Positions 17,648 to 39,940 of a DNA stretch of 45,025 nucleotides are shown here, piece by piece; position 1 is the first letter of the stretch; each line of letters begins with the position of its first letter. The translations under genes and the position numbers were made by a program. Under the pieces are notes generated by a model. That model searched no databases. It was not told the DNA's origin and saw nothing but the letters and a program-made list of their open reading frames with translations. The stretch lies in the NCBI GenBank assembly GCA_002724585.1, contig PBPE01000040.1, positions 20,857 to 65,881 on the forward strand, in the 5' to 3' direction. The DNA comes from Dehalococcoidia bacterium (GTDB lineage Bacteria > Chloroflexota > Dehalococcoidia > Lucifugimonadales > UBA3495).

Positions 17648-17983
17648 ACATTGCGCCAACATCGTCGTAGGTTCGGCGAAAAATAGATTCACGAGTGACC
17701 AGCGTGGACTCAAATAAGCTTAATTTGTAAGAGGCCCAAGGTGACTTGTTTTCCTTGACAGCGTTTGGCAGTGTAAGTACTATATCTATAATCATTCTAA
17801 GGTAAGAGTGAGTTACGAATAACGCGCTAATTGTTACGTGTAATCGTAAGGATTAGCGGATCATTCAGTGTTATTCGTAGAGTTGGGACAATTGGAACAC
17901 CTCGCGATCTCGCGTCGCCGGGATTTTGGCAAAACGTCAATGTGGAAAGCCACGAAAAATACTTGTATACAGAGGGGGAACGT

Positions 17984-19387
17984 ATGGCAGAACAAGATAT
18001 AGCTTTAATGGCTCATCTAATGCGTAGGGCCGGATTTGGGTCTACTTATGAAGAACTTGAACGTAGAGTTTCGGCAGGGTATGAAGCGACCGTAGACGAA
18101 TTATTAAACCCTGAAGGCCAGCCAGATTTGGATATGGATATTCTGGAGCGTCATTTTATCGATTGGCGTGACATGAATGCTTTGGAAGTTAATCAAGCGT
18201 ATTGGACATATAGGATGATTAACACCCAAAGGCCCTTGCAGGAAAAAGTAGCTTTGTTTTGGCATGGGATACTCTGCACAGGCAACTCGAAATGTGAACA
18301 TGGACGACAGGTCCAGTTACAGCTTGATATGTTCCGCGAATTAGGAATGAAAACATTCCCTGAGATTCTCCGAGGGTTGGCTAGAGATCCAGCTATGGTT
18401 TTTTATCTGGATAACTGCATGAGCCATAAGGGTGCCATAAACGAGAACTGGGGAAGAGAGTTGTTAGAACTGTTTTCGTTGGGTGTGGGTATGGATGATG
18501 AAGCAAACTACTCGGAAGATGACGTTAAGGAAGCAGCCAGAGCATTTACAGGGTGGACCATCACTAATCCAATACCCCGTTACCCGTATGGTAGGTATGA
18601 ATCAAACTTTATATACAATCCGTACGATCATGACGAAGAGGAGAAAACATTCCTCGGAGAAACAGGTAATTTTAACGGCGATGAGATCATAGATATAATC
18701 TGCAAGCAACCTTCCGCAGCACGGTTCGTTGCTAGGCACCTGTATAACTTTTTCGTAGCAGATGAAGCAGAGGTTCCCGCATGGCAGAGAACCGCTCCTA
18801 GAGACCCAGAAGCGATCAAATTGCTGGAAGAGGAGTATTACCGGTCCGGCTATAATATTGGAGCAATGCTGAAAGTCTTATTTAACTCGGACTTCTTTAA
18901 AAACGCTCGGTTTGAAAAAGTTAAAAGTCCTACCGAGGTTGTTATAGGGACTATGAGACTGGTGCGTGATTTCACAGAGCCAAAACTCGGATTACATCCC
19001 CTTGCAAATACGATTCGGTACATGGGCCAAGACTTAATGAATCCTCCTACCGTAGAGGGATGGCATACTGGCAAAGAGTGGATCGATAGCGGCACACTGG
19101 TAGAAAGAATCAACTTTGCAGCAGATCAGCTAGGTAATATAGGGTTACCAGGTGTTAAAGACATAGTCTCTAGGATTGAATCTGAACAGATTACCAATCC
19201 AGAGGGATTAGTTGATAGATGCTTAGAGATGGTTGGAAGTTATCAGTTAGCCGACGAAACTAGAGGTCAATTAGTAGAGCATGCTGGTAAAGGCGGCAGT
19301 GTTACCCCGGGAACTCAAGAATATTCACAGTGCATTTCTGAGGTTTTGCAGTTGATTGTTGCTACACAGGAATATCAGTTCGCGTAA
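17984..19387 (+). CDS. DUF1800 family protein
   Basis: HLMRRAGFG...WFHGILCTGNSK-type, NWGRELLELFSLGVG, YSEDDVKEAARAFTGW; ATG 17984 preceded by AGAGGGGGA. Confidence 0.93.
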   Translation: MAEQDIALMAHLMRRAGFGSTYEELERRVSAGYEATVDELLNPEGQPDLDMDILERHFIDWRDMNALEVNQAYWTYRMINTQRPLQEKVALFWHGILCTGNSKCEHGRQVQLQLDMFRELGMKTFPEILRGLARDPAMVFYLDNCMSHKGAINENWGRELLELFSLGVGMDDEANYSEDDVKEAARAFTGWTITNPIPRYPYGRYESNFIYNPYDHDEEEKTFLGETGNFNGDEIIDIICKQPSAARFVARHLYNFFVADEAEVPAWQRTAPRDPEAIKLLEEEYYRSGYNIGAMLKVLFNSDFFKNARFEKVKSPTEVVIGTMRLVRDFTEPKLGLHPLANTIRYMGQDLMNPPTVEGWHTGKEWIDSGTLVERINFAADQLGNIGLPGVKDIVSRIESEQITNPEGLVDRCLEMVGSYQLADETRGQLVEHAGKGGSVTPGTQEYSQCISEVLQLIVATQEYQFA

Positions 19388-19441
19388 TTAGTATTGAATT
19401 GGCCTGGAATGACTAGAAAAGAAAATAAAGGAGAAGAATAA

Positions 19442-20575
19442 ATGACTTCTACCAAGAAAGATCCAGTATTAGTAGTCCTGCAGCTGTCGGGTGGTAACGA
19501 TGCGCTCAACACTGTCGTGCCTCATGGCGACCCTCGCTATTATGATAATCGACCAAATGTTAGGGTCCCTGAAGATCAAGTGTTAAAAATAGATGATAAT
19601 GTTGGTCTAAACCCTAATATGGGGCCAATGAAGAAGATATACGATGAAGGTAAGATGGCTATCATCCAAGGTGTGGGCTATCCTAACCCAAATCGTTCAC
19701 ATTTCCGATCTATGGATATCTGGCATACTTGTGAACCGGACACACAGGGAACCGAAGGATGGCTGGGGCGGACAATCAAAGAAATAGATCCCAACAAAGA
19801 AAATGTGTTGACCGCCGTAAACTTTGGACGTGGACTTCCTAGAGCTCTCGCGGCGCCGGGCGTTCCTGTTGCGTCAGTTGGCAACCTAGCGACGTACGGC
19901 GTGTTGACCGGTATAGAGGGAGAAGATCAGAGGGCTGATGCACTAGATGTATTTTCCAGGATATATTCTCCGACATTAGGCCGGAGTATGGTTGTAGATT
20001 ACTTATCTCAAACTGGAATGGATGCGTTGAAAGGCGCAGATATACTTAGTACAGCTCCTGAAAGTTACTCCTCTACTGTTGAATATGGAAGCGATGTTGT
20101 TGGTCAGTATATGAAAAATATTGCTCAGGTCCATTTGGCTGGATTTGGGACGAGAATATTATATACAACAGCTCCATACAACAGTTTCGATACACATGCT
20201 GGAGAACTCGCTGCCCATGCGAAGTTATGGACAGATACATCGAACGCAATATCAGACTTTTACGATGACCTGCGTGAACATAATGCTAGTGATAACGTAT
20301 TACTCTTAGTGTTTACCGAGTTTGGTCGTCGGGTTCATGACAACGGTTCGGGCACTGATCACGGCTCCGGTGGTATGGCTTTTCTGATTGGAGATCACGT
20401 GAATGGTGGTTTGTATGGTGAGTATCCGTCATTGGAAGAAAGTAAACTTCTAGAGGGCGACTTGCACTTTAACAACGATTTCCGAGGGATATATACAAGC
20501 ATAATAGAAGATTGGATGAATATGGATGCTAAGCCAATAGTCAACGGCGGATTTGAGAAATTCGCACTAGTCTAA
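19442..20575 (+). CDS. DUF1501 family protein
   Basis: VVLQLSGGNDALNTVVP, YPNPNRSHFRSMDIWHT, FDTHAGE, FTEFGRRVHDNGSGTDHGSGG. Confidence 0.93.
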   Translation: MTSTKKDPVLVVLQLSGGNDALNTVVPHGDPRYYDNRPNVRVPEDQVLKIDDNVGLNPNMGPMKKIYDEGKMAIIQGVGYPNPNRSHFRSMDIWHTCEPDTQGTEGWLGRTIKEIDPNKENVLTAVNFGRGLPRALAAPGVPVASVGNLATYGVLTGIEGEDQRADALDVFSRIYSPTLGRSMVVDYLSQTGMDALKGADILSTAPESYSSTVEYGSDVVGQYMKNIAQVHLAGFGTRILYTTAPYNSFDTHAGELAAHAKLWTDTSNAISDFYDDLREHNASDNVLLLVFTEFGRRVHDNGSGTDHGSGGMAFLIGDHVNGGLYGEYPSLEESKLLEGDLHFNNDFRGIYTSIIEDWMNMDAKPIVNGGFEKFALV

Positions 20576-28728: not shown

Positions 28729-29106
28729 TTAGTGACCGCCGCAGCCGCCACCACCACAGCCGCAACCTCCACCGCCACAGCCGCAACCTCCGCCGCCGCA
28801 ACCGCAACCTCCGCCGCTAGCGTACATGGGGTTGTTGATTACGAAACCAACTTGACCGCCAAAATTTTCCACGTAATCTATAGTAGCTTCTTCTAGGAAA
28901 GGAGCACTATCAGAATCCATTAAGAAACTGACGCCATCCATACTCAGTACTGTATCATCTGCCTGGCTTTCGGTTTCCATGGTTAACATGTACTGTAATC
29001 CACCATCTTGAGACGGCATAGCGACTACTCTTAAGGAGCTTCCAGCTTCTCCTTCTCCCTCGATTACTTCCTTGAGTTTCTCGATTGCTAGTGTTGTTAC
29101 TTCCAT
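28729..29106 (-). CDS. HesB/IscA-like protein with Gly-Cys repeat tail
   Basis: N-terminal VTTLAIEKLKEVIEGEG and GVSFLMDSDSAPFLEEATIDYVENFGGQVGFVINNP match the IscA/HesB fold; tail GGGCGCGGGGCGCGGGGCGCGGGGCGGH. Confidence 0.8.
   Translation of the reverse strand: MEVTTLAIEKLKEVIEGEGEAGSSLRVVAMPSQDGGLQYMLTMETESQADDTVLSMDGVSFLMDSDSAPFLEEATIDYVENFGGQVGFVINNPMYASGGGCGCGGGGCGCGGGGCGCGGGGCGGH
28737..28815 (-). repeat. 21-bp tandem repeat encoding CGCGGGG
   Basis: Visible repetition of ccgcaacctccRccgccRcagccgcaacctcc units within the HesB-like CDS. Confidence 0.8.
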
Positions 29107-29228: not shown

Positions 29229-30476
29229 TTATATTGAAGCTAGCTTGGCGAGAGCTAAATTGGCTGCAACTTTTCCAGACACTATAGCTCCATTAATAGA
29301 GCCATTTTCTCGATAATCTCCACATACTAAGACTCCGTTTTCAAGATATACAGTCTGATCTTTTATTCTTGAAAATTTTGGTGATTGGTCTGGCAGTACG
29401 TGAGGTATTACGTAAGAGTTCAGATGCTCCCAATCGTCAACTTCATTGCCGAACCAATCTCGTGCTTGTGTTACCACATCTGACATCATGTCCAAATCAT
29501 TGTCATATTTGTTACCTAGGACTGTTATTGATATTAACGATTTGCCGTTTGGCGCGTATGACATTGATACATTACTAGGGACGCATAAACTATTTATGGG
29601 TCCGTAGCCTGTTCCGTTTAGCGCTAGATAATCTTTGATGCCTGGCGACTTGTCGGCACAAAAGTAAATGCACGTTGAGCCTTTATATGAGGGATACGGT
29701 ACTTCTATAAGGGTTTCTGCGGAAGGACCGTCAGTAGCGACGATCACAGTATCGGCGTTAATATGGTCACCGGAAGATGTCTCGATCGCAGTTCCTGTTA
29801 CGCGTTTTACATGGGTGTTCAATAGAGTTGACTTATGAGGTAGTGATTGTCCCATTTGCGAGGGAATAGCCTGAATTCCTTGCTCTGGAAGAGTCGTCTC
29901 ACCCGCTGACATCATTGAGAATATGAACTCAAACATGATACTTGATGTGACCAATTCGCTATCCCCGAATACCCCGCCTAATAGTGGCCTAAAGAAGGTT
30001 TGGATGATCTGTTCGGAAAAGCCTAGGTTTTTCAGATATTGGCGACTCTGGATATCCTCGCCATTGAAAATGTCATTTAGAGATTTGCTTTTGAGTGCTC
30101 TCCGGAGTAATCCAACTTTCAACTTGTCCTGTAATGATCCTATCGGAGCGCGAAGAGTATTCAGTAAATTTATAGGCTTACGCCAAGGGTCAGCCACTTT
30201 ATGGAACTTATTGTTTATGCGCACGAGACTTCCGGGATAGAACTCATGCAAGTTGAGGGATTCGTAATCTAGTTCCTGCTTAGTGTCAGGATAGGCTGTA
30301 AATAAGACTTGAAACCCTCTATCAAGTAAATATCCATTGATGTAGTCTGTTCGTAGCCTACCCCCTACGGAATCAGATTGGTCTACTAACAAAAATGGTG
30401 TATTTGAGCGATGTAATGCTCGTGCACAGGAAAGCCCTGCCAATCCTGCCCCGACTATTATCACATCATATTTCAT
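29229..30476 (-). CDS. NAD(P)/FAD-dependent oxidoreductase (amine oxidase/phytoene desaturase-like)
   Basis: YDVIIVGAGLAGLSCARALHRSNTPFLLVDQSDSVGGRLRTD dinucleotide motif; C-terminal VLVCGDYRENGSINGAIVSGKVAA. Confidence 0.9.
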   Translation of the reverse strand: MKYDVIIVGAGLAGLSCARALHRSNTPFLLVDQSDSVGGRLRTDYINGYLLDRGFQVLFTAYPDTKQELDYESLNLHEFYPGSLVRINNKFHKVADPWRKPINLLNTLRAPIGSLQDKLKVGLLRRALKSKSLNDIFNGEDIQSRQYLKNLGFSEQIIQTFFRPLLGGVFGDSELVTSSIMFEFIFSMMSAGETTLPEQGIQAIPSQMGQSLPHKSTLLNTHVKRVTGTAIETSSGDHINADTVIVATDGPSAETLIEVPYPSYKGSTCIYFCADKSPGIKDYLALNGTGYGPINSLCVPSNVSMSYAPNGKSLISITVLGNKYDNDLDMMSDVVTQARDWFGNEVDDWEHLNSYVIPHVLPDQSPKFSRIKDQTVYLENGVLVCGDYRENGSINGAIVSGKVAANLALAKLASI

Positions 30477-31863
30477 AGTCTTTGGACTTTCCTAGATAGT
30501 GATTTAGTGCTTCCTCAATATGTGAAAATATGTGCGTGTATCCGCTTTGCGATAACTTGGTGGAATCTACCCTGGTGCTCGCCAAGATAGTCTCCTTGCC
30601 CATTTGCCCAAACATAATTTTTATTATGAAAGCTGGTATTGTGGCTACGGTAGGCCTGTTTAGGGTTGCTCCTAGCTGTCTGGTAAATTCTTCGTTGGTT
30701 ACCGTGTTAGGAGAAGCAATGTTTATAGGGCCTTCTACCGTCGAATTCAACATCACGTGATGGATTGCGCAGATAGCGTCATCCAGGCTAATCCAACTCA
30801 TATATTGTTTGCCATGTCCAATTTTGCCACCAAAGCCTAGTTTGAAAGGCATCAGCAGTTTTTTTAGTGCGCCTCCCATCGGGTTTATTACTACCCCAAA
30901 GCGTAAATTTACAACACGCATTCCTTGGTCAGTAGCGGATCGTGTAGATTGTTCCCAATTTTCAACTACTTGAGCAAGGAATCCGGCTCCATTTGGAGAT
31001 TGTTCATTTACTAAATCGTTTCCAGCATCTCCGTAATATCCAGTAGCCGACGCGCACAATAGAGCTTTTGGAGGGCATTTCAAATGTGATAGTGATTCAG
31101 TAAGAAACTTAGTGCCATTGATTCTACTATCGGAGATTCTTCCTTTTTTCTTTTTAGTCCACCTACTTTCCCCTACATTCTCTCCCGCCAAGTGGATAAC
31201 GTAGTCAAAGCCCTCAAGGGATTCAATATCGATGATATGGTTTAAAGGGTCCCAAAAAATGGTCCCTTCATCCTCTAAGTCGGAGGTGCGGACCAACCTA
31301 ACTACCTGATGGCCGCCAGTAGATAGATACGAGCTTAAAGCTTGGCCGATTAAACCTGTAGATCCGGATATTAGTATCTTAGTTATTCCATCTGATTGAT
31401 ATCTGCTATGGGATAGTAAGTCTGAACGGAGAACGTTGTGTCTGTAGGTGAACATCTTTTGTAGCAAGTTCTTCACGATGGGCCCACCTAATATATTTCC
31501 TACTATCCCACCACGCATAGAAAACTCTATTTCATCTTCTAATATGCATGTTTCTTCATCTTGTGGTTCCATTTTATGGATATGTTTCCAATAGGCGAAG
31601 GGGCCTTTGATGAGAATGTCTGCGAATTGGCGATCCTGAATGAAATCGATATGTTTCAAAAACCACTTAGAGGATAATGGCCCAAGTTTAGTCTTGATTG
31701 TGATAGTTCCATTATCTTCAATGCTTCCTAACTTCTCTATAGTTTCGGCCGGTTGCCAAGGCGGGGTTAGTCTCTCAAAGGCTCCTTCTCTACAATGCCA
31801 ATTAAAAACCGTGGTTGCTGAGTGGTTTAATTGTGATCGCTTAACGTAGGTTATAGTCTTCAT
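30466..31863 (-). CDS. TIGR01777-family epimerase with N-terminal SRPBCC-like domain
   Basis: ILISGSTGLIGQALSSYL, HLAGENVGESRWTKKKKGRISDSRINGT, SATGYYGD; ATGA overlap with the upstream SDR at 31860-31863. Confidence 0.9.
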   Translation of the reverse strand: MKTITYVKRSQLNHSATTVFNWHCREGAFERLTPPWQPAETIEKLGSIEDNGTITIKTKLGPLSSKWFLKHIDFIQDRQFADILIKGPFAYWKHIHKMEPQDEETCILEDEIEFSMRGGIVGNILGGPIVKNLLQKMFTYRHNVLRSDLLSHSRYQSDGITKILISGSTGLIGQALSSYLSTGGHQVVRLVRTSDLEDEGTIFWDPLNHIIDIESLEGFDYVIHLAGENVGESRWTKKKKGRISDSRINGTKFLTESLSHLKCPPKALLCASATGYYGDAGNDLVNEQSPNGAGFLAQVVENWEQSTRSATDQGMRVVNLRFGVVINPMGGALKKLLMPFKLGFGGKIGHGKQYMSWISLDDAICAIHHVMLNSTVEGPINIASPNTVTNEEFTRQLGATLNRPTVATIPAFIIKIMFGQMGKETILASTRVDSTKLSQSGYTHIFSHIEEALNHYLGKSKDYEI

Positions 31864-32606
31864 GTAGTGGTCCTTTTCAGTACGGACCCAAGCCCTCCAT
31901 CTACTCCGATTACTTGCCCTGTGACCCATGTATTCTGCCTGTCTAATAGCCAGGTGATTGCTGATACTACCTCAGATGGTTGTCCTATTCTGGAAATAGG
32001 GTGTATAGACTCAGATGAGCGCAATGCGCTTTCATTTCCCGTGATTTGAGAAGTCATGGGCGTATCTATAAGTCCAGGAGCTACACAGTTGACACGTATT
32101 CCTCTGGTTGAGTATGTTGCAGCAGCAGATAATGTCAGCCCTATGACGCCTGCTTTAGTCGCGCTGATCGCGTCGTGGTAGGCCATTCCTATTTTACCGC
32201 AAGCGGCTGCTATTAATACAATTGAACCACCTCTTTTCATCATAACTCTGGATGCGCCTTTCACAGTACCCATAGCACTGGTAAGGTTAGTATCCACGAT
32301 GTCCTGCCACTGCTCAGATGATATTGTGTGGGATGGTTTTAGGAGAGATGATCCTATACAGTTTACAGTCCCATACAGAGAACCTAATACCTCTTCGGCC
32401 TCTGTATACGCTTTACTAATAGATTCAATATCCATGGATCCGATTATGATAATTTTAGAGTCAAGTTCGGCTCCAAGTTCTCTTAGGGTTGTAGAATCTC
32501 GTCCAGCTAACACAAGGTGTTCCTCTTGATCTCTTAAAGTCCTAGCCAGAGTAGATCCGATACCTCCGCTAGCACCCAAAATTAATGTGCCGCTCGTGTT
32601 TTTCAT
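31860..32606 (-). CDS. Short-chain dehydrogenase/reductase
   Basis: LILGASGGIGSTLARTL, YHDAISATKAGVIGLTLSAA, RVNCVAPGLIDTPM; 4-bp overlap with the preceding gene. Confidence 0.9.
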   Translation of the reverse strand: MKNTSGTLILGASGGIGSTLARTLRDQEEHLVLAGRDSTTLRELGAELDSKIIIIGSMDIESISKAYTEAEEVLGSLYGTVNCIGSSLLKPSHTISSEQWQDIVDTNLTSAMGTVKGASRVMMKRGGSIVLIAAACGKIGMAYHDAISATKAGVIGLTLSAAATYSTRGIRVNCVAPGLIDTPMTSQITGNESALRSSESIHPISRIGQPSEVVSAITWLLDRQNTWVTGQVIGVDGGLGSVLKRTTT

Positions 32607-34072
32607 AAGTCCTCTTTATGCAGTTGGATGTACCGGCCGATATTGTTTATCATGCCAGAGAAAACTAAGTTATGAATCGGGTACAGTGCGTACCAATACA
32701 ACAATCCTCCTACTCCTACGGGATCAAAGATTGCGGTTTGGGTTAGTATGGTCTCATTTTCCTTCTGACTTACTTGGAATTCTAACCATGCGCGTCCCGG
32801 GACTTTCATCTCGGCAATCAGCAGAAGTCGTTGGAATGGTTCGTACGCCTCTACCCGCCACCAATCTATAGTGTCCCCCACAGTAATGGTTTCAGGGTGT
32901 TTACGACCTCTACGAATACCAACGCCTCCAAATAATAGGTCTAGGAATCCACGTATCTGCCACAACCAATTTCCGTAGTACCATCCTTGTCGACCGCCAA
33001 TACGTTGTATTGGTATAAATGCCTCTTGCTGTCCTACAGAGACACTTATCCTTCGCATATCGAGTAGTCTTGGCCCAAACCTTACTCCTCCCCAATGTTT
33101 GATCGGACCTGAAGAAGATTGAGCGTCAGACCATCGCGTTTCGGCAAAGTCTCGATCTTCATCTTCTAGTGCTTTACTAATGGCATCAGTAACACCACTT
33201 GGTATAAGGTTGAAATAATGTTGTGCTGTGGTGCTATTTACTACACTGGGATATCTCATGCTATCGATTAGTTTGCGCCCTATGCGAGCATAAACGGGAG
33301 TGACGAGTCCCAGCCACAGACTGGACAGTCTAGGAGTCAGGACAGGTACTGCTAACATGAGGCGTTTTAGTCCTCTCTGTCGGGCGTACTCTTTCATGAT
33401 TTGCCCGTAGGACATTATTTCAGCACCTCCAATTTCTACGATTATATCTTCGTATTTCGGCAATTCGATGCTTTCTATTAGATATTTGAGTACGTCGTCT
33501 ATTGATATTGGTTGCGATGGGGTTGAGACCCATCTGGGAGTTATCATTACTGGCAAACGTTCTACTAGGCTGCGGACTAACTCGAAAGATAAGCTGCCTG
33601 ATCCAACAATGACGGATGCTCTGAATTCAATAACGGGGACCTCTGATTCTCTTAATATCGACCCTACTTCCTGCCTGCTCAGTAGGTGCGGCGATAACTT
33701 CTTAGTTGATTCGCCAAGGCCACCAAGATAGATTATTCGTCTGATCCCGGCAGATTTAGCAGCATAGGCGAAATTCCTAGCACATTCTGTTTCTAGATCC
33801 ATAAAGGATTTAGCTGACCCCATCGAGTGGACTAGATAAAATGCTGTATCAATTCCATTCATAGCATGTTCAATCGATTGGGAACTTAGCATATCTCCCG
33901 ATATAATTTCGGTGTTTTGCGATACTTTTGATGCAAGGGAATCTGAATTTCTTGCAAAACACCGAACGCTATACCCCATTTTTTCCAACATTGGGACTAA
34001 TCTGCCGCCAATGTAGCCCGTTGCTCCTGTTACTAATATCCGGTGATTTCTGGTTAGGCTGGTATTAGACAT
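32603..34072 (-). CDS. NAD(P)-binding SDR with C-terminal DUF2867-like domain
   Basis: ILVTGATGYIGGRLVPML; RRIIYLGGLGE; WYYGNWLWQIRGFLDLLFGGVGIRRGR...VGDTIDWWRVE. Confidence 0.9.
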   Translation of the reverse strand: MSNTSLTRNHRILVTGATGYIGGRLVPMLEKMGYSVRCFARNSDSLASKVSQNTEIISGDMLSSQSIEHAMNGIDTAFYLVHSMGSAKSFMDLETECARNFAYAAKSAGIRRIIYLGGLGESTKKLSPHLLSRQEVGSILRESEVPVIEFRASVIVGSGSLSFELVRSLVERLPVMITPRWVSTPSQPISIDDVLKYLIESIELPKYEDIIVEIGGAEIMSYGQIMKEYARQRGLKRLMLAVPVLTPRLSSLWLGLVTPVYARIGRKLIDSMRYPSVVNSTTAQHYFNLIPSGVTDAISKALEDEDRDFAETRWSDAQSSSGPIKHWGGVRFGPRLLDMRRISVSVGQQEAFIPIQRIGGRQGWYYGNWLWQIRGFLDLLFGGVGIRRGRKHPETITVGDTIDWWRVEAYEPFQRLLLIAEMKVPGRAWLEFQVSQKENETILTQTAIFDPVGVGGLLYWYALYPIHNLVFSGMINNIGRYIQLHKEDL

Positions 34073-34268: not shown

Positions 34269-35744
34269 TCAATTGTGTTTTCTCCCCAGATCGTAAAGTA
34301 GTTTAGCTTGCTTATATGCAGCTAAACTACGAATGCGGGATGTTTTGTAATCAACAATAGGCCTTGGATAATCTACACCTAAACTGATCTGCGCTCTTTG
34401 TAATATATCTGGTGGTGCTAACCATGGATGGTGAATCCAGGGCTCAGATAATTGAGATAATTCAGGTATCCATTGATGGATAAATGATCCATCAGGGTCG
34501 GTTTTTTGAGATTGTGTCAGCGGATTAAAGATCCTAAAGTAGGGTGATGAGTCGGTCCCGCACCCGGCTATCCATTTCCATCCTAAATTATTACTTGCCT
34601 CGTTGGCATCTACCAATAAGTAAGAGAACCACTCTGCCCCTTTCTGCCATGGTATAAGTAAATTCTTAATTAAGAAAGATGCCACGACCATGCGAAGCCT
34701 ATTATTCATCCAGCCAGTGCTTTTAAGCTGTCTCATTGCTGCGTCGATTATGGGGTAACCCGTCTCCCCTGATTGCCAAGCAGTTAAGTGGTTTTTATTA
34801 TCGTCCCAAATGAAATGATCGAGAACTGTATTGCTTGGTTCGCTATTAGATGCGGGAAAATGCGTAATGATGTAGTTAGCGAACTCTCTCCAGCCTAGTT
34901 CTGTAATGAATTTGTCTTCATGTAAAGTTGCTGAAGCTGTTGCCTTCAGCCTTTGTTGGTCTAGTTCTTGGAGTATCTGAGCCGGTCCTATTTCTCCGAA
35001 GCTTAAATGGGGCGATAGCATCGACGTTCCAGTAATATCTGAACGCTCTCTATTTTCGGAGTAATATTCGTATGAAGTTAGGAGAAATTCTTTAAGTTTT
35101 CTATTGGAGGATGCCTCTCCGGGGGTCCACATTGGTTTTATACATGATACTTCCCTAAAACTTGAACCTTCGTTCATTTCTGTGGGTTGGACTGTATTAG
35201 GCCACAGCATAGGACTCGAAAATTGTTCGGACCTCAGTGGCAGAGGCAGTGGGTTTGGTTCTTGTAGCGTTAAACAATGTTTCCAAAATGCGCCGAACTT
35301 TTTATAAGGATGATTGTTAGCTTTATATATAGTCCTTGGATCAAATAAATAATTAGAGTTGAATGCTTTCAATACGATATTCTGTGGTCTTAGAGCTTCT
35401 TCGACCAAACTCTGTGTTTGTATTTCAGAGGGTTCGTATCTTTCGTTAAAATAGACATGATCAGCGTGTGTTTCCGAGGCCAGGCCGCGAAGCTCTTTAT
35501 GGGCATATCCTTTCCTGATAATTAGACGAGAACCCATGTGGCTTAATGAATCTGACAAATGTCGCAAGGAAACTCTAAGCCACCGTTCAGAATGAGGGCC
35601 GTTGAAAGTACAATCACTTGACTTGTCGTTCCATATAAATACTGGGATAACAGGTTTTTGAGAGGATAGAGCTGCGCTTAGAGCTAGATTCCCTTCCAAG
35701 CGCAGATCGTTCCTAAACCATACTATTACTGGTTGCGGTTGCAT
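34269..35744 (-). CDS. phrB: Deoxyribodipyrimidine photolyase (cryptochrome/photolyase family)
   Basis: VIVWFRNDLRLEGNLAL; LSPHLSFGEIGP; ELGWREFANYII; GYPIIDAAMRQLKSTGWMNNRLRMVVASFLIKNLLIPW; DANEASNNLGWKWIAGCGTDSSPYFRIFNP. Confidence 0.95.
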   Translation of the reverse strand: MQPQPVIVWFRNDLRLEGNLALSAALSSQKPVIPVFIWNDKSSDCTFNGPHSERWLRVSLRHLSDSLSHMGSRLIIRKGYAHKELRGLASETHADHVYFNERYEPSEIQTQSLVEEALRPQNIVLKAFNSNYLFDPRTIYKANNHPYKKFGAFWKHCLTLQEPNPLPLPLRSEQFSSPMLWPNTVQPTEMNEGSSFREVSCIKPMWTPGEASSNRKLKEFLLTSYEYYSENRERSDITGTSMLSPHLSFGEIGPAQILQELDQQRLKATASATLHEDKFITELGWREFANYIITHFPASNSEPSNTVLDHFIWDDNKNHLTAWQSGETGYPIIDAAMRQLKSTGWMNNRLRMVVASFLIKNLLIPWQKGAEWFSYLLVDANEASNNLGWKWIAGCGTDSSPYFRIFNPLTQSQKTDPDGSFIHQWIPELSQLSEPWIHHPWLAPPDILQRAQISLGVDYPRPIVDYKTSRIRSLAAYKQAKLLYDLGRKHN

Positions 35745-35776: not shown

Positions 35777-36961
35777 TCATGCTAGTGGGCTAACCGCTTT
35801 TGGTGTTGGGTAATCAGATACATTTAGTTGATGATCCATATCAGCATTAGATTTAAACGCTTTGCGTGTTCGCATCCATGACGATGTCGAATCCTTATAC
35901 ACAATGATGGGAATAGTTGTGGCTTCAAGCAACTTTCGAAGAGTATAGCCCTTTATCCGGTCAATTAGTCCGGGGTTGACCAAGCTCTGCGGAATCATAA
36001 TCAAGTCCGCGTTTTCGCTTTCAGCCCATTTCGCTAGATGTTTGAACCCGTGCTCAGTCGCTAATATTACTCCGGCACATAGTTCATTATTATTAAGATG
36101 GTCCAGCTGCTCAACAAGATACTCTCTCCCCATTAAACCTAGATCTTGAGTATGTAACACTTTAGTGGAAGTTTTTTCTACTTCTCCTGACGGATATGGA
36201 TTCACTAAATATGATGCTGCTGAAATGTCATATAACATAACGTAAGCTTCATTTTCTGCTGCGAACGAACTTATCTCTTCACGCATTGAGTCAATTTGTT
36301 CATTTTGATTATCGTCAGTCACCATCATGATGCGACTAATCGGAAAAGGTATTTCTTCGGATAGCTTCATTAGGGGCAGGGAAGCTGTAGGACCATTCTG
36401 TTTCCTAACTCGCTCGAGATAATTTATCGCGGCATCAATTATTCTCTCGTCATTTGAGACAAATCCACGGAATTCTTTTCCTTCTGTAGAGATCCCGCCT
36501 AGCCCGAAAAGCTCAGCACTAGATGTTTCCCAACCTATAAATATTATGGGGTTTGGTGATGCCGATATTAGGTACCACTGGTTTTCAAAAGCTAATAAAT
36601 CAGTTGGTAATGATACCCATTGTTCTGCGGGAACGTTGTTCTGGTCAGGCACGTTACCTTGACCAAAACCAACTACCGGAATTCCCAACGTGCTCATGTA
36701 CGTATATCTCTCAGTCTCGTTTAGGAATTTATCCACTGTTTGAAAACCGACATACAGAGTTGATTGGGAATCAGGCACTTTCGTTATTTCATTTTCTATT
36801 TCACGTGTGATTTGAAGCATCTCTTGACTGGAATAGAGAGACTTGAAGCCCTCAAGCGGTGGACCTCCTGCTCGTAGTTCTTTATCCATCCGATCAATAA
36901 AGGCATCGACCCCAGAAGGATCCAATACTGTTTTGTCGGCGTCTAGAATAGTCCATTTCAT
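35777..36961 (-). CDS. DICT-like sensory domain protein with C-terminal Usp-like region
   Basis: N-term STLYVGFQTVDKFLNETERYTYMSTLGIPVVGFGQ...WVSLPTDLLAFENQWYLI...IIFIGWETS...FRGFVSNDERIIDAAINYL; C-term ADLIMIPQSLV...LEATTIPIIVYK resembles universal-stress proteins. Confidence 0.65.
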   Translation of the reverse strand: MKWTILDADKTVLDPSGVDAFIDRMDKELRAGGPPLEGFKSLYSSQEMLQITREIENEITKVPDSQSTLYVGFQTVDKFLNETERYTYMSTLGIPVVGFGQGNVPDQNNVPAEQWVSLPTDLLAFENQWYLISASPNPIIFIGWETSSAELFGLGGISTEGKEFRGFVSNDERIIDAAINYLERVRKQNGPTASLPLMKLSEEIPFPISRIMMVTDDNQNEQIDSMREEISSFAAENEAYVMLYDISAASYLVNPYPSGEVEKTSTKVLHTQDLGLMGREYLVEQLDHLNNNELCAGVILATEHGFKHLAKWAESENADLIMIPQSLVNPGLIDRIKGYTLRKLLEATTIPIIVYKDSTSSWMRTRKAFKSNADMDHQLNVSDYPTPKAVSPLA

Positions 36962-36984: not shown

Positions 36985-37407
36985 TTAAAACTGCTTTTGC
37001 TTCTTATGTTTTAGGGCAAATTTGATCAAAGCCAAATCTGGTTTCCATTGAATGTTTCTTGATTTAAATATTTTATTTAACAATCCAGGTTTAGCTTGTT
37101 CTCCTACTATCACTATTGGCTTGTTATTGTTGAGAACCCTGATAGTCAATCCAGTGCGTTTAAGCACTTCACTGGCATCAGAAAGATTTTTTGACTTTTG
37201 GGGTAGTTTCCTACCCCAATGGGTCAAAATTTTGTCTACTAGTGACAGTTCTATGTCTATGACGTTTCCTGTTCCGGTAATGTTGCTGGTCATTTCATCT
37301 ATTTCTACTCGCACGGTTCCAGTCACATTAAAACGTTCATTTTTAACATCTATCACTATGTTTATGACTCCCAAGTGCGGAGTCTTACACTCCCATTCAA
37401 ATTCCAA
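36985..37407 (-). CDS. Hypothetical protein of the photolyase operon
   Basis: Same strand, tight spacing; start uncertain (ORF start overlaps the upstream gene by 46 bp; a later GTG start is possible). Confidence 0.6.
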   Translation of the reverse strand: MEFEWECKTPHLGVINIVIDVKNERFNVTGTVRVEIDEMTSNITGTGNVIDIELSLVDKILTHWGRKLPQKSKNLSDASEVLKRTGLTIRVLNNNKPIVIVGEQAKPGLLNKIFKSRNIQWKPDLALIKFALKHKKQKQF

Positions 37408-37562
37408 CGTGCCTGAGGAGCATCTGCGCCGGTAGATTTAGGTACCATAACTTCCATATCAGCAAAGGTGTATTCGATAGTGGTTCCTCTGCGATTAAGG
37501 AATTCGTAAAGCGACTCAGCTAATTGTGTCCATGTGCCAATTTCCATGTTGTTGTCTGTCAT
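37362..37562 (-). CDS. Small hypothetical protein (MTDNNMEIGTW...)
   Basis: AAGGAGAAAAAAATG start at 37562; 66 aa. Confidence 0.65.
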   Translation of the reverse strand: MTDNNMEIGTWTQLAESLYEFLNRRGTTIEYTFADMEVMVPKSTGADAPQARWNLNGSVRLRTWES

Positions 37563-37615
37563 TTTTTTCTCCTTATTGTTGTTTAATTCATGACTTTGTT
37601 CTTGGTCTAGTAGAT

Positions 37616-37855
37616 TCATGATAGGTTTATCCTTCCCAGAATTTCAGCTTCTGCCAACGTTAAGCTAGGGTCGTTTATTCTTCTGGTGGAGCGTGCAATT
37701 ACACCAGGCAAACTTGGACTCAATACGTTTAACGGGTCTAGAACTCTGTGAGAATCTGCTTTTCGAGAGACCATAAACCTTTCCCATTTATTTATAAGGT
37801 CACTCATTGCAGTACGAGTTTTTATGATTAATGTATTTATCTCTGTTATGTCCAT
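37616..37855 (-). CDS. Small hypothetical protein (MDITEINTLIIKTRTAM...)
   Basis: SD AAAGGAG upstream of ATG 37855; 79 aa; in operon. Confidence 0.65.
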   Translation of the reverse strand: MDITEINTLIIKTRTAMSDLINKWERFMVSRKADSHRVLDPLNVLSPSLPGVIARSTRRINDPSLTLAEAEILGRINLS

Positions 37856-37911: not shown

Positions 37912-38109
37912 TCAAGCTAAGGTTGTTACTGCTACAACGCCCGATACTGCTACTAGCAGATAGATGATCCTAGATAGAATATTTACTTCTCCAAACGATT
38001 TGCCTCCAGCAATGAGGGCCACCAAGTCAAATTTAAATAAGCCCACCAGACCCCAATTGAGCGCCCCTACGGCTGCGAGAATAATTGCTATGTTTTGCAC
38101 CATTGTCAT
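37912..38109 (-). CDS. DUF378 family two-helix membrane protein
   Basis: NIAIILAAVGALNWGLVGLFKFDLVALIAGG...LSRIIYLLVAVSGVVAV; GAAAGGA SD. Confidence 0.88.
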   Translation of the reverse strand: MTMVQNIAIILAAVGALNWGLVGLFKFDLVALIAGGKSFGEVNILSRIIYLLVAVSGVVAVTTLA

Positions 38110-38225
38110 AATTATGTCCTTTCATTTATGTAGATTAAGTTATACAACCTTGTGTCGTTAATTGTGGAACACCTGGTGTTTATAAATATCTCCTTTCACT
38201 GATTACAGTTCTTTATTAGTTTTTA

Positions 38226-38257: not shown

Positions 38258-38286
38258 TTGACAGTGTTCTACGTTATGTGTATTAT
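38258..38286 (+). promoter_or_regulatory. sigma70-type promoter with GTTCTA half-site in spacer
   Basis: TTGACA (38258-38263), 17-bp spacer, TATTAT (38281-38286); GTTCTA at 38266-38271. Confidence 0.6.
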
Positions 38287-38462
38287 TCTAGACATCTAAG
38301 GGCTTGTTTGTCAACTATATCTTACAAATTGCTTGAAACGTAGTATTTGTTAGACATGAAATTAAAAACAGATGATCTGTGTAGGTGTAGAGATAAGGCA
38401 AGTCCGAAATAGATTTAGCGGGTGAATCCAAAATATACAGACCTGCTGAAGAGAGGTGAGAA

Positions 38463-38657
38463 GTGTTCTGGTTTAATTCGTGTCAGAAATGTAAGGGAGA
38501 TCTATATGAGAGCAGGGATAGTTTTGGTCCGTTTGTAACGTGTATTCAATGCGGCCGTTATTTCGCTGGGACAGTATCTGAGCCTCAGGAAATAGATGAG
38601 AACGTATTTATACCTGAGCAGGTTCGTCGCCGTAAGCCTCGTAGGAAAGCTGCGTAA
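38463..38657 (+). CDS. Small zinc-ribbon protein
   Basis: CQKCKGDLYESRDSFGPFVTCIQCGRYF (two CxxC), basic tail; GTG start with GAGGTGAG upstream. Confidence 0.7.
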   Translation: MFWFNSCQKCKGDLYESRDSFGPFVTCIQCGRYFAGTVSEPQEIDENVFIPEQVRRRKPRRKAA

Positions 38658-38722: not shown

Positions 38723-39601
38723 TTAGTCTGAAAGGAGCTGTCCGATGGGTACTTCTAAGGCCTCGGCAAGTTTTAAAACTACCCCGATCGTCAGGTTCTG
38801 TTTCCCGTTCTCGACGGCACTTATGTAGGTTCTGTCCAATGAAGAGGCTTGGGCTAATTGTTCTTGATTCCAACTTCTTCTTTTTCTCAAATCCTGTACT
38901 CTGGAGCCCATCACTATTAAGTATTCATTTAGACTTAAAGGATCCTTTGAGAGTCCTCCAAGGCGGCGAGCCTCCTGGATTGCACTGTATGCGTCGATGG
39001 CAAATCCGTCCGGTCCAAGTCCCTCAACTTGATCGCTATCTGTAACGCCGTATCCTCCTAGTAATATTCTGGGTGCATCGGGCAGTCTTCTCAATTGCGT
39101 GATTATTTGCTCTACTGTACTAAGGTCTTCTTTCATAGAAACGGATAAGGCGACAAGTTCGGGGTGGCCCTGGCGTACGAACTCAACTAAATCGTGAGTT
39201 GGTGTGTCTGCTCCTAGGAATTCAACGTCCCATCCGTCTACTAGTAAAAGGTCTGCGATCATTCGGGATCCCACGTAATGGAAATTACCTTCTACGCATG
39301 TTACAACTGCCTTGATTCCCCATTTCGTGGTAGCGTGGTAGCGCTGTCTCATTTGGTCCATAACGTCTAGTGTCATCTGGGTTGCAAGATGCTCCTGCGC
39401 TATGTTTATGTCACCGGTGTGCCACATTTCACCGACTCGAATCTGGGATTTGCCAATAATTGAAACGAGTATGCTGACTGGGCTCAGCCCTTGGCGTATA
39501 GCATCTTCTATAACAGATATCGTGGTGTCGGGATCTCTCCGGATTAGAGCGTCTAGGTAACGATCCCTCAGTTTAGTTGTTACTAAATCGTCTGTACTCA
39601 T
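38723..39601 (-). CDS. Cobalamin-binding (CarH-type) regulator with C-terminal XRE/Cro HTH
   Basis: Residues 60-71 WHTGDINIAQEH (W-x9-EH); EGNFHYVG (H108) lower-ligand motif; SVS and GGYG B12 motifs; C-term RVQDLRKRRSWNQEQLAQASSLDRTYISAVENGKQNLTIGVVLKLAEALEVPIGQLL is a classic XRE HTH. Confidence 0.92.
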   Translation of the reverse strand: MSTDDLVTTKLRDRYLDALIRRDPDTTISVIEDAIRQGLSPVSILVSIIGKSQIRVGEMWHTGDINIAQEHLATQMTLDVMDQMRQRYHATTKWGIKAVVTCVEGNFHYVGSRMIADLLLVDGWDVEFLGADTPTHDLVEFVRQGHPELVALSVSMKEDLSTVEQIITQLRRLPDAPRILLGGYGVTDSDQVEGLGPDGFAIDAYSAIQEARRLGGLSKDPLSLNEYLIVMGSRVQDLRKRRSWNQEQLAQASSLDRTYISAVENGKQNLTIGVVLKLAEALEVPIGQLLSD

Positions 39602-39762
39602 ATACGAGTCCCTCCAGTGCTATAGATAGCCGTATTTGATGTGTTTGTTCATCGTCAATGTTATCTATATTGTACACGAACGTTTTATAAACGCAAGAAG
39701 TGTACGGTTTGTTGTGTGCTTGAAATAGTCATGAATGGCGTGATTGATGACTGAACAATATA

Positions 39763-39776
39763 TAGAATATATTCTA
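39763..39776. promoter_or_regulatory. Candidate operator TAGAATATATTCTA
   Basis: Perfect 14-bp palindrome in the divergent intergenic region between the B12-XRE regulator and acyl-CoA dehydrogenase. Confidence 0.4.
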
Positions 39777-39940
39777 CATACAACAGGTGTGCAAATACTA
39801 AACAACTTAATAGTAGTTGGGGAGTTTGATTTTTTGAATGATCTAGAATAATGGGAGTAGTGATGAAGGATCTGTTGAGAGCGATGATCCGATAAGATAT
39901 ACTACGTCCGCTCTCGTTTAATTCGGAAAATGGAGGATGG

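Follow-up and report, generated by a model that had tools for sequence, protein, structure and literature searches.

The gene at 38723..39601 on the minus strand of the window (the whole 45,025-nucleotide stretch of DNA analysed here) probably encodes a B12-based light-sensing transcriptional repressor, which would be bound to adenosylcobalamin (AdoCbl) in the dark and released by light. This reading was reached from the CarH-type pocket residues of the protein, from the light-responsive proteins that are its nearest solved structures (CtMerR, 8jbs, and the photocobilin SasPcob, 8j2x), from LitR-like neighbouring genes and from a predicted operator lying in the relevant promoters. Somewhat less firmly, we favour the wider view that proteins of this build, CBD-XRE, form an old and separate line of B12 photoreceptor repressors standing in for CarH in a large bacterial group. 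On this view their operator is an 18-bp palindrome, often doubled at a distance of three helical turns, and a photolyase/DICT/DUF378/fasciclin light-protection set is switched on when light destroys AdoCbl.

The open reading frame starts with ATG and encodes 292 amino acids, exactly as in a preliminary description of this DNA. Three Pfam domains were found in it, an arrangement shared by a family of 65 members: a four-helix B12-binding_2 domain (residues 11-82; 39356..39571, minus strand; E 5.8e-13) carrying W60, H61, E70 and H71, a Rossmann B12-binding domain (residues 97-189; 39035..39313, minus strand; E 3.8e-16) with the lower-ligand H108 and G130-xxx-P134, and an XRE/HTH_3 DNA-binding domain (residues 236-288; 38738..38896, minus strand; E 1.7e-13). 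Both B12-binding matches were over the curated cut-offs, and the HTH_3 match scored 50.8 bits against a gathering score of 23, which classes the C-terminal domain as an XRE (HTH_3) transcription-factor domain. The preliminary description had this domain at about residues 221-290; its type and its C-terminal place were right, and its extent proved shorter. The nearest solved structure of the HTH in a search of the PDB was C.AhdI (1y7y, E 7e-9), an XRE controller protein, although proteins of that kind, unlike the window protein, are without a sensor domain. By Pfam, the window protein has no MerR domain, its B12-binding part (CBD) beginning at residue 11 and its sole HTH being that at 236-288, and no bilin-binding globin-like domain beside the CBD. 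An AlphaFold model made from its sequence alone had a mean pLDDT of 44 and was set aside.

Alignment of the window protein and its family with CarH of T. thermophilus HB8 placed W60, H61, E70, H71, H108, G130 and P134 on W131, H132, E141, H142, H177, G199 and P203, and all 13 positions checked were identical between the window protein and the T. thermophilus protein. The CBD fold and the pocket residues W131/H132/E141/H142/H177/P203 are shared with CarH and the class I LitR proteins, and the criterion for that class, Wx9EH with a lower-ligand His, describes the window protein too. The equivalence of the first five of these residues had been proposed beforehand and agrees with the alignment; likewise, W60-H61-x8-E70-H71, H108 within EGNFHYVG, SVS and GGYG were each found as claimed. 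When the PDB was searched with the single sequence, the nearest structures were CtMerR (8jbs, E 2.5e-21) and the photocobilins 8j2x, 8j2w and 8j2y, with T. thermophilus CarH lower; when it was searched with the family profile, photocobilins ranked first. The alignment to CtMerR (PDB 8jbs/8jbt; phmmer) ran ungapped over residues 11-112 and put W60, E70, H71 and H108 on W156, E166, H167 and H204, four residues named in the paper that shows the light response of CtMerR experimentally (PMC11796333). CtMerR differs in being of the MerR type, with an N-terminal DNA-binding domain, and in having Arg where the window protein has H61. The photocobilins (SasPcob 8j2x, AbDPcob 8j2y) resemble the CBD-XRE family in that SasPcob has an N-terminal CBD with W61, E71-H72 and H108 (PMC10979010), but they carry their own bilin-binding globin-like domain and no XRE domain.

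The signature of light-responsive CBDs, as given in the SignatureFinder survey, is GxxW, EH, GxxH and GxxxP (PMC11796333). It is complete in the window protein (G57-W60, E70-H71, G105-H108, G130-P134) and in 49 of the 65 family members. Retention among the 65 aligned homologs was total for E70 and H108, 63/65 for each of W60, H71 and P134, and 46/65 for H61. By comparison, 19 methionine synthases have F/N/V/L at positions 60/61/70/71 and are missing both the W and the EH, and the signature is missing from an MtaC-like pair as well; judged from these sequences, 65 homologs against 19 methionine synthases, the conservation is not chance. The B12 motif of the window protein reads NxHxxG, SVS, GG, against D/E-x-H-x2-G ... 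SxT/V ... GG in CarH and class I LitR, with Asn (N106) in place of Asp/Glu and Ser in place of Thr/Val; position 106 is D or E in 61/65 homologs. Of the CarH positions compared, the dimer salt-bridge Arg176 is F107 and Gly160 is H89 in the window protein, and Gly192 is kept. Since Arg176 and Gly160 are not kept and position 106 is Asn, oligomerisation of the window protein may differ from that of CarH, which is a tetramer in the dark and disassembles in light. Two homologs (L003 in G022 and L004 in G011) have Tyr at position 60 and Leu at position 134, together with an intact XRE domain and operator-like sites ahead of a DICT gene, and are possibly light-insensitive members; as they are the nearest tree relatives of the window protein, the pocket does drift within that subgroup. 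In two others (L161 in G126 and L163 in G081) the His of the EH motif, residue 71, is replaced by Asn.

The architecture recurs as a family: full-length CBD-XRE homologs are present in 69/250 genomes of the order, in some additional members of its class and in genomes from other classes of the phylum. The XRE domain is kept across all 65 members of the aligned family. Other genomes of the phylum have standalone CBDs and CBDs fused to different N- or C-terminal regions, and the phylum also has proteins with a C-terminal CBD, which we read as MerR-type. A search for related loci in a wider set of genome contigs gave an XRE match only. Viral contigs gave HTH-only matches, the longest (L147) being a short XRE protein, and on plasmids CarH and other cobalamin-dependent proteins were matched, two of which were inspected and are not annotated as XRE fusions.

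In a maximum-likelihood tree of the CBD only, the 65 XRE-linked CBDs formed one side of a branch with an SH-aLRT of 88, a value below the 95 mark from a quick search with long branches, and were separate from the standalone and otherwise fused CBDs and from the MerR-CarH and the photocobilin-like proteins of the same phylum. This grouping suggests an old separate lineage of the light-responsive CBD superfamily, and not a recent swap. The preliminary description had spoken of a DNA-binding head exchanged and moved to the other end: an XRE domain at the C-terminus, and not a MerR domain at the N-terminus, is indeed what is found, whereas a recent exchange on CarH does not agree with the tree. 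The NCBIfam CarH model NF052513 matched the CBD part only of the window protein, scoring 70 bits where its cut-off is 400, and in 20 gene-bearing genomes no MerR-type CarH scored over that cut-off, the matches at E 1e-10 being the CBD-XRE proteins themselves. We infer that the CBD-XRE regulator works like CarH and yet fails the tests for CarH, having no MerR domain and falling short of the model cut-off.

Downstream of the regulator, and all on the same strand, lie the genes that are predicted to be its targets; they are read as neighbours, and a single transcript is not implied. The first, at 37912..38109, encodes a DUF378 membrane protein (PF04070, E 3e-19). It is followed by two small open reading frames, at 37616..37855 (no Pfam match) and 37362..37619, by a small protein with no Pfam match (36985..37407), by a DICT-domain protein (35777..36961; PF10069 at 23.9 bits, just at its cut-off of 23.8; cluster in 5 compared regions, the window included) and by a DNA photolyase (34269..35744; PF03441 E 5e-82, PF00875; family in 7 compared regions, the window included). 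After a gap of about 200 bp come an NAD(P)-binding protein with DUF2867 (32603..34072; cluster in 9 compared regions), a short-chain dehydrogenase (31860..32606; 10 regions) and an epimerase with DUF1731 (30466..31929; 6 regions), these three assigned by Pfam and the window again included in each count, and then an FAD-dependent amine-oxidase family protein (29229..30476; PF01593, E 7e-38). The epimerase is presumably TIGR01777-like. The set has a parallel in the LitR-controlled region of Pseudomonas, which also has a photolyase, a short-chain dehydrogenase and an FAD oxidoreductase (PMC9758184).

Elsewhere in the family, a fasciclin-domain protein is linked to the regulator in 15 compared regions, mostly divergently. 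In seven regions (L122, L123, L124, L126, L130, L131 and L135), predicted operator sites are shared between the regulator and the divergent fasciclin gene. Fasciclin is an adhesion-type secreted protein. Photolyase (PF03441) genes turned up in 16/48 regulator-bearing genomes and in 1/37 lacking the regulator (Fisher p 3e-4, the genomes being counted regardless of relatedness). No operator was found in the fetched flanks of photolyases lying elsewhere in regulator-bearing genomes (L169, L170, L172-L174, L177 and L179), so the regulon is not simply all photolyases; these photolyases have a distinct N-terminus. Three further features of the window were recorded. Between the regulator and the DUF378 promoter, and convergent with the regulator, is a small open reading frame with CxxC pairs (38463-38657, plus strand), which we take to be zinc-ribbon-like. 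At 28729-29106 (minus strand) there is a small protein that in our estimation resembles an A-type iron-sulfur carrier; its long tail is a Gly-Cys repeat (GGGCGCGGGGCGCGGGG). At 17831-20575 (plus strand), two adjacent genes, presumably a DUF1800/DUF1501 pair, are followed by an NHL-repeat-like protein.

The pocket and the linked genes bear on two other readings of the regulator. It could report the supply of B12, as AdoCbl, with light of little cellular import, since AdoCbl would fit the pocket whichever role the protein has. An adenosyltransferase of the PduO type, which is required for making AdoCbl, is present in 19/20 gene-bearing genomes checked and speaks for the light-released repressor as well. 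We consider such a sensor of AdoCbl status unlikely, because the linked genes encode photolyase, DICT, dehydrogenases, oxidases and fasciclin-domain proteins, no cobalamin genes were identified among them, and the residues present are those of the light-responsive signature. Decidedly unlikely, in our judgement, is a B12-independent regulator like CarA of Myxococcus, in which the CBD would be retained for structure or for binding a partner, with control coming from some other input. CarA has a B12 motif and the EH without the Trp (PMC9304148), and N106 of the window protein and Y60 of G011 and G022 could be taken as steps in that direction; against this, W60 stands alongside EH and H108 in the window protein and in almost the whole family.

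A candidate operator was found upstream of most homologs: an 18-bp palindrome, TGT..A.TATA.T..ACA. Aligned upstream regions of related members contained a recurring block of the TGTCAACTATATTC type, and several words were enriched upstream, at the top TGTCAACTA and overlapping 9-mers. A first guess at the motif, TAGAANNNNTTCTA, had only two exact sites in the window and almost no orthologs, and was replaced by the 18-bp motif. A palindromic 18-bp model was seeded from the upstream alignments and cross-validated two-fold over 32 clusters below 65% protein identity. The held-out regions exceeded the 95th percentile of dinucleotide shuffles in 25/32 cases and the 99th in 23/32; as the seed was drawn from the same set, the hold-out applies to the matrix and not to the discovery of the motif. 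By this matrix about a quarter of the clusters are without a convincing operator. Near the gene start, sites of at least 14 bits had 126 times the density seen in the remainder of the fetched regions, a comparison in which the training set is part of the near regions. Outside the training regions, predicted sites stand ahead of fasciclin, DICT and DUF2867 genes linked to the regulator.

With an independent matrix, whose training left out the window gene and the relatives nearest to it, the top four sites of the whole 45-kb window were 39761-39778, 38277-38294, 38309-38326 and 39659-39676. The first of these, TATAGAATATATTCTACA at 39761..39778, lies in the promoter region of the regulator itself and is the best site of the window by both matrices; a second, weaker predicted operator in the same region is at 39659..39676. 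The other two lie upstream of the target set: TGTCAACTATATCTTACA at 38309..38326 contains the -35 TTGACA, and TGTGTATTATTCTAGACA at 38277..38294, 32 bp from it, contains the -10 TAGAAT of a minus-strand promoter-like site, TTGACA-18-TAGAAT (38285..38314), which matches 11/12 consensus positions and, by consensus match only, is the best on that strand there. The sites at 39659, 38309 and 38277 were found by the 18-bp matrix, the independent matrix and the genome pattern alike. A weak predicted operator just 5' of the DUF378 gene (38129..38146) scored 13.2 bits, and 11.2 bits with the independent matrix, by which it was sixth in the window. With one mismatch or none, the pattern TGTNNANTATANTNNACA occurs 9 times in the 2.1-Mb genome, 4 of them in the two intergenic regions flanking the regulator gene, and a reversed control pattern has 12 sites in the same genome.

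In the family, the second-best site is most often 30-33 bp from the best, in about 13, by our count, of 24 clusters with a confident best site, against 1.5 expected for an even spread over 12-75 bp. This distance, about three helical turns, fits two dimers on one face of the DNA, and the predicted tandem sites would fit an AdoCbl-dependent assembly that, like that of CarH, stands in the way of RNA polymerase in the dark and comes apart under light. The operators of CarH consist of 11-bp direct repeats in tandem, nnnnTnnACAn (PMC9304148); the predicted CBD-XRE operator contains TnnACA halves as well, but arranged as an 18-bp palindrome, often paired 30-33 bp apart.

The placing of the sites also speaks to the sign of regulation, which is not derivable from sequence alone. 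If the light state, and not the dark state, held the operator, the protein would be a light-dependent activator, and several homologous regions do have sites farther upstream. That arrangement seems highly improbable for the window protein: its CarH relatives are dark repressors (PMC9304148), and in the window the best promoter-like site has its -35 and its -10 hexamer each within a predicted operator, the usual position of a repressor. A corrinoid methyl-transfer protein joined to an HTH by chance deserves next to no credit: matches to the TIGR02370 pyl_corrinoid and MtgC/MtbC models are weak and stay under the cut-offs, whereas W60/E70/H71 are replaced in methyl-transfer proteins, the XRE domain persists throughout the family and no methyltransferase partner of such a kind was identified among the linked genes.

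The light-released repressor would then work as follows. In the dark, the regulator would hold adenosylcobalamin, with W60, E70 and H71 packing the upper adenosyl group and H108 holding the cobalt, and would form dimers and probably pairs of dimers. The XRE domains would bind the 18-bp palindromes (TGTNNANTATANTNNACA) over the -35 and -10 of the DUF378-DICT-photolyase-dehydrogenase promoter, as well as the sites in the promoter region of the regulator itself. In light, the Co-C bond would break and the adenosyl group depart; H61 may then occupy the upper face of the cobalt, as its counterpart in Thermus CarH does. The protein assembly would change, the DNA would be let go and the photoprotection genes would be expressed.

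The order of domains is not itself new. In general terms, the 2024 survey mentions HTH output domains at both the N- and the C-termini of signature-bearing light-responsive CBDs, a signature that the window protein shares (PMC11796333). An XRE type, the operator, the gene set and the distribution are absent from the main text of that survey (PMC11796333). The preliminary description knew of no characterised member with this domain order, and this is borne out as far as the literature searched contained no characterised XRE member, but not for the CBD-HTH order in general. What is new here is the XRE identity, the 18-bp operator, the spacing of its sites, the target set and the distribution. 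If the reading is true, optogenetics would gain a useful part, a small repressor that responds to green light and has a defined palindromic operator. For the organism, a concrete predicted operator and target set are supplied in a lineage that by its gene content appears to resemble the largely uncultured marine SAR202 group; SAR202 isolates are inhibited by light, from a cause still unsettled (PMC10444878). For the family, the finding would mean that B12 light sensing also runs with an unrelated DNA-binding domain and another domain order, giving an XRE-based, operator-defined counterpart of the MerR-based CarH, and the step that transmits the signal from pocket to head would become directly comparable between two solutions.
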